From positions 186,001 to 250,000 of the forward strand of contig NZ_SBIT01000010.1 of the NCBI RefSeq assembly GCF_004765785.1: DNA of 64,000 bases, written 5' to 3'. Both the position numbers and the translations under genes were made by a program. Source of the stretch: Halorussus ruber (GTDB lineage: Archaea; Halobacteriota; Halobacteria; Halobacteriales; Haladaptataceae). The notes under the pieces were generated by a model, which had not been told where the DNA came from, ran no database searches, and saw only the letters and a program-made list of their open reading frames with translations. This document shows positions 27,628 through 61,014 of this stretch, piece after piece (position 1 is the stretch's first letter; each line of letters opens with the position of its first letter).

Positions 27628-27960
27628 TCGCTCGCACCCGGCGGAGCAACCGCCGGGGCGTGCGCTCGGTGGAACAAACCACGAGGACGCGCTCGGTGGA
27701 GCAACCGCCGGCAAACGCTCGGTGAACCAACCGACAGGGGTGGATGAAGGGGCCGCCCGGTCGCGTTCATTTTAGTCGCTCCTCGACCCCTATCCGCGAC
27801 GTGCGGTGCGGGGAGGAGCGGATATGTCGAGGAGCGACCGCGAGCGGGCGGGGGCTTCAGGAACCATTCACGACTACGGTCGCTGCCGAGCCTGCCCCAA
27901 CTCAGGACGACCGGATTGCGGCTTCAGAACTACTCTATCCACAAGAAAGAAACAAAGACA
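27628..27960 (+). repeat. Dispersed element, family 2, copy A (27-base array plus hairpin)
   Basis: This fills most of the 416-base gap after pyk. The tandem units GCGCTCGGTGGAACAAACCA (27662-27688) and GCGCTCGGTGGAGCAACCGC (27689-27716), plus partial units on both sides, have a 27-28 base period. Then comes TGGATGAAGGGGCCGCCC and a hairpin: GTCGCTCCTCGAC (27775-27787) pairs perfectly with GTCGAGGAGCGAC (27826-27838), and TATCCGC (27791-27797) with GCGGATA (27818-27824). GGGGGCTTCAGGAA follows. Copies occur at 28.6 and 59.3 kb. Confidence 0.8.
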
Positions 27961-28015: not shown

Positions 28016-28195
28016 CTATGCCGCGAGGAGAATCACGCGGCCGAAGACGAACAGCATGGTGGCGACGCCGAGGACGACGAAGGCGGCGTTTTCGAGCGTC
28101 GGCGACCCCGGTGTCAGGGGTTCGAGTTCCTCGCGCTCCTCGGGTTCGTAGCCGTCCTCGCCCACTTCGTCGGTGTCGTACTTCCAGTCCGACAT
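28016..28195 (-). CDS. Small membrane protein (DUF7312-like)
   Basis: 59 residues from ATG 28195 (MSDWKYDTDEVGEDGYEPEE). An acidic cytoplasmic N-terminus is followed by ITPGSP-like LTPGSPTLENAAFVVLG and one membrane helix ending VILLAA. This arrangement recurs as a small haloarchaeal family; function unknown. Confidence 0.7.
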   Translation of the reverse strand: MSDWKYDTDEVGEDGYEPEEREELEPLTPGSPTLENAAFVVLGVATMLFVFGRVILLAA

Positions 28196-28374
28196 GCTCC
28201 CGAGTATGCGTCCCACCGTCAAAAGGATTGGCTACCTTCAGCGAGGAGACTCACAGAAGCAGTCGGGATTGTCGTCTCGAAAGCCCTCGCACTCGGAACC
28301 GCAGGAGTAGACGAGACAGCAATGTCCTCGAAAGCCCTCGCGCGGTTCGCCGCCGGAAGACGGTTGTGCTCGTC

Positions 28375-28432: not shown

Positions 28433-28542
28433 TACGCTCCTGCGCGGACTGGGACTTCCGAGGTCACACTCGCACCGGAAGACAAACCGCGTCTTCCGAG
28501 CCGTTGCCTCGCTTCGCTCGGCAAGACTTCGCTCGCGTGACG

Positions 28543-28715
28543 GCCGCTCAGCGACATATTCCTCGGCTCACTTCGTTCGCCGGAAGGCATTCCTGCTCGG
28601 CCTACGGCCTGCGCGGGCTGTGACTTCCGAGGTCTGCGTCGCTTCGCTCCGCAGACCGCCTGCGGATAGGGGTCGCTGAGACGACCACGTAAACGCGAAC
28701 CCCGCTCGCCCTTTC
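28543..28715 (-). repeat. Dispersed element, family 2, copy C (expanded loop)
   Basis: Read on the minus strand. GGACTGAAAGGGCGAGC leads to GCGTTTACGTGGTCGTCTCA, then CCCCTATCCGC. The arms CTCAGCGAC (28547-28555) and GTCGCTGAG (28672-28680) are complementary as in the other copies, but the loop is about 115 bases and itself contains small palindromes (such as CGGTCTGCGG/CCGCAGACC types). No 27-base array precedes it. The rest of the 665-base gap between the DUF7312-like gene and the NfeD gene holds the three-way junction repeat (28375-28432) and a repeated CTCGAAAGCCCTCGC at 28276 and 28327. Confidence 0.7.
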
Positions 28716-28860
28716 AGTCCTCCAGGGCCGCACTTGGTCGGCCGGTCGAAACCTGTCGGTTGGCCCACTGGCCGAAACCTGTGGTTGGTGCGCCACGCCG
28801 ACCCCGTTCTCTCTCGCAGACTGCAAAACGTTAACCGGTCGGACTCCCAAGCAGTTGCTA

Positions 28861-59099: not shown

Positions 59100-59530
59100 A
59101 TCGGGAGTGGTAGTCGTGTTTTTCGGTAGTGAAGCCTCCGTCGCTCTGTCTCGATGGAATTGGGAGCGCGAACAGCAGGACTGCGGTGGTGTCTTCCTGA
59201 ATCCCCCGGTCGGTCGCTCTGTCTTGATGTAGTCAGGACCGCGAACAGCAGGACTGCGGCGATAATGTCTTTTTGAAGCCCCCGGTCGGTCGCGGTCGCT
59301 GGCCGACATATCCGCTCCTCTCCGCAACACCCGTCGCGGATAGGGGTCGGCCAGACGACCAAGATAAACGCGACCGACCGGCCCCTTCATCCACCCAAAC
59401 AGGGGTTCGTTTCACCGAGCGCATTCCGGCGGGAAGTTTCACCGAGCGCGTCCCGGTGGTTTGTTTCACCGAGCGTTCGCTGATGTGCGCGGTGCCGGGT
59501 GCGTCCCGGTGATTGGTTCCACCGAGCGCG
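59100..59530 (-). repeat. Dispersed element, family 2, copy B (27-base array plus hairpin)
   Basis: Most of the 599-base gap. On the plus strand, TTTCACCGAGCG recurs at 59410, 59437 and 59464 (exact 27-base period) and, as TTCCACCGAGCG, at 59517. The hairpin is GTCGCTGGCCGAC (59295-59307) against GTCGGCCAG-A-CGAC (59346-59359), with inner TATCCGC (59309-59315) and GCGGATA (59336-59342). Downstream on the minus strand are two degenerate units containing GCAGTCCTGCTGTTCGCG-type sequence about 70 bases apart (near 59170 and 59240). Confidence 0.8.
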
Positions 59531-60954: not shown

Positions 60955-60971
60955 CTCCAGAAGGCGGTAAA

Positions 60972-61014
60972 AAGCGGCGAAAAGCGGCAAAAAGCGGCGA
61001 AAATCGACAGGCCG
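60972..61014 (+). repeat. Short decamer tandem repeat
   Basis: Four units of about ten bases: GGTAAAAAGC, GGCGAAAAGC, GGCAAAAAGC, GGCGAAAATC. It sits just after the transporter stop, at a convergent gene end, and is probably slippage-derived. Confidence 0.6.

Follow-up and report, generated by a model that had tools for sequence, protein, structure and literature searches.

A dispersed, hairpin-forming DNA element family, apparently undescribed, with three copies in a segment of the Halorussus ruber genome

INTRODUCTION

The attC site of integrons works as a folded single strand, with arms that vary but remain complementary and with unpaired features that are fixed. In the leading region of bacterial conjugative plasmids, hairpins and ssb genes occur together. 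REPs are palindromes of 20 to 40 bp, two large superfamilies of which are tagged with GTAG or CGTC (PMC3733652), and the rolling-circle origin of RepSNJ2 is a hairpin of about 22 nt beside the Rep gene, the integrity of which matters and not the sequence of its stem (PMC13107129).

Here, we describe a family of dispersed, hairpin-forming DNA elements, apparently undescribed so far, with three copies in the 64,000-nucleotide stretch of the Halorussus ruber genome that we analyzed (the window). The element resembles each of the systems above in part. Its variable complementary arms and fixed unpaired features resemble those of an attC site, and we propose that it too functions as a folded strand; however, it lies outside cassette arrays, and no ends resembling RYYYAAC/GTTRRRY were seen. 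Like REPs, BIMEs, and REPINs, it is a dispersed, intergenic, imperfect palindrome with at least 100 copies and clustered half units. We liken it to REPs, which TnpA-REP (RAYT) recognizes as single-strand hairpins, but it differs from them in its length of about 125 nt and in its several fixed internal loops. With MITEs and other small nonautonomous elements it shares a short, noncoding, dispersed inverted-repeat structure and the existence of occupied and empty sites, but no terminal inverted repeats referable to a known transposase were seen, and its stems vary between copies while the loops are fixed. On plasmids, an imperfect hairpin near a gene for a putative single-strand-binding protein and, on pNG500, near conjugation genes recalls Frpo/ssi promoters, oriT, and the hairpins of rolling-circle origins; yet no Rep or relaxase was found beside the element, and its dispersal over chromosomes is massive.

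Literature searches, sequence strings included, returned no description of the element, no haloarchaeon is mentioned in the text of RepRanger, a survey of bacterial and archaeal REPs, and Rfam gave no match at gathering or lax thresholds. A preliminary description of the window, which knew of no matching RNA or DNA element, is supported in this. We consider it probable, with some reserve, that the element is a nonautonomous foldback DNA element of haloarchaea, recognized by an enzyme as a folded single strand, which has dispersed to intergenic sites of Halorussus and several other genera.

RESULTS AND DISCUSSION

Structure of the element

The element family is real and strongly structured. Each complete copy is an imperfect hairpin of about 125 nt, and R1, a covariance model built from eight copies, gave E values of 7e-32, 3e-29, and 3e-11 for the three copies in the window:

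59270 to 59396, plus strand: copy B, a complete hairpin and the highest-scoring copy in the genome (R1, 146 bits; model positions 1 to 139)
27738 to 27863, minus strand: copy A, a complete hairpin (R1, 135 bits)
28517 to 28723, plus strand: copy C, degraded, with additional sequence in the tip (R1, 59.6 bits, E value of 3e-11)

The complementary arms that the preliminary description had reported near 27.78, 59.30, and 28.55 to 28.68 kb are all there, at 27775-27787/27826-27838, 59295-59307/59347-59359 (with an additional A at 59355), and 28548-28556/28672-28680, the last in copy C. The repeat that it delimited at 27775 to 27838 is, however, only the middle of a longer hairpin: beyond these arms copy A, which has the plan of copy B on the minus strand, continues with a second variable stem (27753-27765/27839-27851) and then a TGAAG/CTTCA stem, with CCC/CCC between the two. 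Likewise, the three copies exist but differ in strand, the one at 27.8 kb being on the minus strand and those at 28.6 and 59.3 kb on the plus strand, and the copy at 28.5 kb is present but degraded (59.6 bits versus 135 and 146). The parts of the hairpin are listed for copy B, together with the tandem units that flank copies B and A:

59274 to 59278, plus strand: 5' side of the predicted outer stem, TGAAG (3' side CTTCA, 59385 to 59389)
59279 to 59281 and 59382 to 59384, plus strand: predicted fixed CCC/CCC internal loop, inside the TGAAG stem
59282 to 59294, plus strand: 5' side of the variable outer stem of 13 bp (3' side, 59369 to 59381)
59295 to 59306, plus strand: 5' side of the middle stem, GTCG plus CTGGCCGA (8-bp variable part), the covarying arms of the preliminary description (3' side, 59347 to 59359)
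59307 to 59309, plus strand: conserved asymmetric internal loop CAT, opposite AGGGG (59342 to 59346)
59310 to 59315, plus strand: 5' side of the apical stem, ATCCGC (3' side GCGGAT, 59336 to 59341)
59360 to 59368, plus strand: 3'-side bulge of 9 nt, CAAGATAAA in copy B
59140 to 59293, plus strand: tandem 5' units of about 73 bp, 2.1 copies (Tandem Repeats Finder score of 210)
59409 to 59475, plus strand: tandem 3' units of 27 bp, GTTTCACCGAGCGCATCCCGGCGGGAA (Tandem Repeats Finder)
27640 to 27737, minus strand: comparable tandem 3' units of copy A (approximate limits, set by eye)

Folded as DNA, copy B reaches −40.7 kcal/mol (z = −7.65) and copy A −37.5 kcal/mol (z = −6.22). As single-stranded RNA or DNA, the intact copies fold 5 to 7.7 standard deviations below dinucleotide shuffles, and with DNA parameters the folds are stable on both strands. 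The window contains exactly three occurrences of CCCCTATCCGC and the whole genome nine; the pattern read backwards has none in the genome. Other copies have GAAAG/CTTTC as a variant of the outer stem, and their bulge contains a small hairpin, for example GGGCCTCCGGCCC. The ends of the element are conserved (TTCTTGAAG and CTTCATCCCACC), with an invariant CA..CC.CC in the 3' tail. This tail and the two internal loops (CCC/CCC and CAT/AGnGG) are fixed across genera, CATAT and ATAGnGG being near-invariant in the copies of Halorussus, Halosimplex, Haloarcula, and Halopiger. Each tandem 5' unit contains GAACAGCAG and the 5' outer arm, a layout that recurs at other copies, as do comparable units on the 3' side.

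Halorussus and Halosimplex share an extra module on the 3' side of the element, CCTC(A)C(G)CCTCCCCAACC..., seen in the 3' flanks of loci L013, L016, L021, L032, and L035 and of L189, L201, L206, and L228. A short tandem array of AAAAGCGGCG units at 60964 to 61003 of the window (Tandem Repeats Finder) is unrelated to the element.

Copy number and distribution

The 4.3-Mb genome contains at least 146 copies by the R1 model, a lower bound, with 150 of 3,295 candidates scored. Of the 119 copies examined as distinct sequences, 112 are intergenic in a genome with a coding density of 75%, and the element is in this respect, like a REP, a high-copy-number extragenic imperfect palindrome. Neighboring genes are oriented at random around the copies (34/26/23/17), no neighbor gene recurs among the 119, and close pairs of copies are as frequent as expected (12 observed versus 11.8). 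The copies prefer neither strand, and an orientation directed by replication was rejected, since neither this genome nor congener G006, which has 100 copies, shows significant runs. Across 17 congeners, the R1 counts, capped at 55, range from 0 (G009), 1 (G014), and 6 (G005) to at least 50 in eight genomes; in G009, none of 55 scored candidates was a copy, and most other congeners have dozens.

Among haloarchaeal genomes of at least 90% completeness, 89 of 391 contain the element, and these belong to 32 of 84 genera; named records include Halorussus, Halosimplex, Haloarcula, Halopiger, and Halomicroarcula. Copies are found on plasmids of Halorussus, Haladaptatus, Haloarcula, Salinibaculum, and Halorientalis. 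Four bacterial organisms matched the sequence pattern without a match to the model and were treated as chance, and phage records, searched with a virus origin in mind, had no match for the element.

Covariation of the stems

In the 119 distinct copies from the genome, 94.2% of the cells pair and 34 of 36 base pairs have changed on both sides. Two-sided cells number 487, whereas shuffles gave 132 (standard deviation of 8) and slid structures no more than 69. Across genera (94 sequences), changes on both sides were seen in 33 of 36 pairs, with 331 cells versus 101. Because these alignments were fitted to the model and favor the structure, a mutual-information test with average-product correction was run too, against columns that were simulated along a FastTree tree and matched in their numbers of changes. 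Under this null, which is rough, 10 column pairs were significant; eight of them are true pairs and one adjoins a true pair. The element thus has compensatory changes beyond phylogeny, as structured RNAs in general have, and the covariation of the arms claimed in the preliminary description is significant in a covariance-model analysis of about 120 copies and across genera, with the fold conserved.

Within the genome, two-sided changes affect eight of eight pairs in the variable part of the middle stem and six of six in the apical stem; in the variable outer stem, compensatory changes were found in eight of eight scored pairs within the genome and in 11 of 13 across genera. The outer stem has been wholly rewritten between genera and is still paired (for example, GCCCGGTCGC in Halorussus, ACGCCGCTGGCG in Haloarcula, and CGCCGCTGTGGCG in Halopiger). 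One-sided intermediates are scarce among the copies of the genome; alignment columns 49/253, for example, have 67 C-G, 48 G-C, and 2 U-A pairs and no mismatch.

RNA, DNA, or mutation

In a selected RNA helix, G-U pairs are usually tolerated and A-C mismatches are rejected. In the element, counts for the inner helices were 28 G-U versus 32 A-C cells among the copies of the genome, and across genera they were 47 versus 48. A model-free alignment of the arms gave 16 versus 37 (P = 0.005), a skew that, if anything, would mean mild tolerance of G-U on the opposite strand. The stems of tRNAs would have served as a yardstick for G-U, but the six usable tRNAs were too few. Since G-U and A-C are equally rare, intermediates are scarce, and the copies are intergenic with random gene orientation, we favor a constraint that acts at the level of DNA, with which few mismatched intermediates and such equal rarity are expected. 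The small RNA that the preliminary description named first is not supported, given the equal counts and the random orientation.

More broadly, the copies could have arisen by multiplication of a structured RNA gene, for a small RNA or for an RNA that partners a protein, and their stems would then covary under selection for the RNA fold. Significant covariation with fixed internal loops is typical of RNA motifs, and from its conserved position 5' of a plasmid OB-fold gene (see below) the element could make an RNA partner. We nevertheless think such a family unlikely, if the least unlikely of the alternatives: G-U makes up about 2% of pairs and is no commoner than A-C on the modeled strand, genes are oriented at random, a single genus includes genomes with 0 and with at least 146 copies, and no Rfam family matched. 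A role as terminator, riboswitch, or 5' leader is out because orientation to the neighboring genes is random. Searches for tRNA and tmRNA genes found none in the window.

The preliminary description regarded compensation as the classic mark of selection. The covariation is significant, but it is not proof alone, because small, unrelated hairpins nested in the element also keep their complementarity, those of inserts in the tip (TTGCC/GGCAA, TCGCC/GGCGA, and TCACC/GGTGA) as well as those of the bulge (GGGCC/GGCCC and GGGTC/GACCC). Arm-to-arm copying at DNA hairpins during replication could therefore be a real alternative cause for part of the signal. In its extreme form, the covariation would be entirely mutational, the two arms of a long DNA palindrome being matched to each other by template switching or gene conversion without selection for the fold, and the element would be an ordinary degenerate intergenic repeat. 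The near absence of intermediates at columns 49/253 agrees with this, and the 5' half is duplicated in tandem, consistent with slippage during replication of a hairpin. However, the mismatched loops CCC/CCC and CAT/AGnGG are fixed across genera when their correction would be expected, so something preserves them, which argues that arm-to-arm copying is not the whole cause; a purely mutational origin appears quite improbable to us.

The tip insert, a double hairpin of about 52 nt (GGAAGACAAACCGCGTCTTCC plus TYRCC...GGYRA), is present in nine copies (L085, L089, L098, L108, L097, L086, L082, L001, and L102) at the identical tip position, CGCACC^GCCCG, between ACC direct repeats, which flank this nested insert only. 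It is a second small element, nested site-specifically in the hairpin tips, and one such insert hairpin lies in the window at 28477 to 28497.

Probable mobility and the proposed foldback element

The reading as a foldback DNA element draws on the wide differences in copy number within the genus, on the copies carried by plasmids, and on sites that are occupied in some genomes and empty in others. The site 3' of the pyruvate kinase gene has the element in 3 of 18 genomes (H. ruber, G002, and G012) and an outer-hairpin remnant in G003, and it is syntenic and element-free in most other congeners. At the second site, 5' of the MFS gene (59659), H. ruber has the element and G003 has a different copy, whereas the closest relatives have none. 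Some of the empty sites could be explained by loss instead of gain. Target-site duplications are not readable, because intergenic flanks have diverged too far between species. In combining noncoding sequence and dispersal with occupied and empty sites, the element is like a MITE.

A third observation concerns a gene between copies A and C:

28016 to 28222, minus strand: DUF7312 gene (PF23994)

Among 18 congeners compared, this gene is inverted only here and in G007 and is forward in the others showing it, as expected from recombination between the inverted copies A and C. A composite transposon made of two inverted copies about 0.8 kb apart was rejected: the genes inside the five pairs of this kind are unrelated genes of the host, and close pairs occur about as often as expected. 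Dispersal, occupied and empty sites, and inversion between inverted copies make a mobile DNA hairpin the best fit of the three options in the preliminary description (small RNA, mobile DNA hairpin, or recombination site). The element behaves like a small mobile DNA hairpin, a kind of small foldback or palindromic element that is possibly plasmid derived.

Searches for Y1 transposases and integron integrases yielded no candidate for a mobilizing gene. The Y1 transposase (PF01797) is absent from five congeners with at least 29 to 55 copies each (G001, G002, G003, G010, and G011), with a positive control in Haloferax volcanii; a REP/RAYT system is thus not the engine, and the length and ends of the element do not suit one either. 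The integron integrase (TIGR02249) gave only matches below the cutoff, which were also present in 14 of 14 control genomes, and none in G000; an attC site was rejected because no integron integrase scored above the cutoff in the genus. The Y2 transposase of the IS91/Helitron type (PF04986) had no match anywhere, control genomes included.

We hypothesize that some enzyme recognizes the foldback element in its folded, single-stranded form and that the fixed loops and tail are the sites of protein contact. The stems would be free to change as long as they stay paired, both through selection for the fold and through arm-to-arm copying at replication, and recombination between inverted copies would invert the DNA between them. 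If this is right, haloarchaea own an abundant family of mobile DNA hairpins, present in more than one-third of the genera searched, and the mobilizing enzyme, once identified, might show that single-stranded DNA can be moved in a way not seen before. The compensated, variable stems and fixed loops indicate the bases that a protein would read. The case also warns that covariation by itself is no proof of RNA.

The Haloarcula plasmid copy

On Haloarcula plasmids, one co-oriented copy lies 490 to 610 nt 5' of an OB-fold gene at 16 of the 18 evaluable loci, that is, those with an OB-fold homologue of at least 59% identity; at distant homologues (35 to 40% identity) in other haloarchaea, the hairpin is absent. 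The gene encodes a protein of about 380 amino acids annotated as a member of the SOSS complex subunit B family, with weak matches to the OB fold. On pNG500, the one plasmid inspected for this, the locus adjoins genes for a conjugal transfer protein and a type IV secretion DNA-binding protein. The arrangement resembles, by analogy, the leading region of bacterial conjugative plasmids. That each OB-fold gene has a single copy, fixed and co-oriented, suggests a functional site more than a parasite, which counts against the foldback-element reading; the hairpin may also have a role in plasmid biology.

The dispersed copies may derive from this one as their functional parent, or it may itself be a domesticated copy. 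In a more far-reaching version, a single-stranded DNA hairpin of conjugative plasmids (an oriT, single-strand origin, or promoter for an RPA-like OB-fold protein) would have escaped and spread selfishly to more than 100 chromosomal sites in several haloarchaeal lineages without a known transposase class, a scenario that we find unlikely. Less likely still, the element would serve conjugative or rolling-circle plasmids as a functional single-stranded DNA site (oriT or a single-strand origin or promoter), and its chromosomal copies would be remnants of plasmid or ICE integration. The co-oriented copies at 16 of 18 loci, in a long noncoding region with conserved blocks, and the conjugation genes beside the pNG500 copy speak for a plasmid site; however, the Halorussus copies have unrelated single genes for neighbors, none of them shared, the H. 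ruber genome has no OB-fold homologue at an E value of 1e-15, and the OB-fold relatives of other haloarchaea do without the hairpin. For the foldback-element reading, too, the single plasmid copy by the OB-fold gene offers a genetically tractable place for testing function.

The noncoding region 5' of the OB-fold gene extends over more than 1 kb and contains additional conserved blocks (L266, 5421 to 6663; L183, 5168 to 5662), for example, GCGTGGGGCTGGCAG, CATCCGGCACTCGCTTGGCCGCGCGGGATG, and TACGGAAAGGCACGACGCACGC besides the hairpin. The plasmid copy of Haloarcula sp. GH36 (L272, 4001 to 4147) has lost most of the inner hairpin and kept the outer stem, and L120 is a remnant of the outer stem only.
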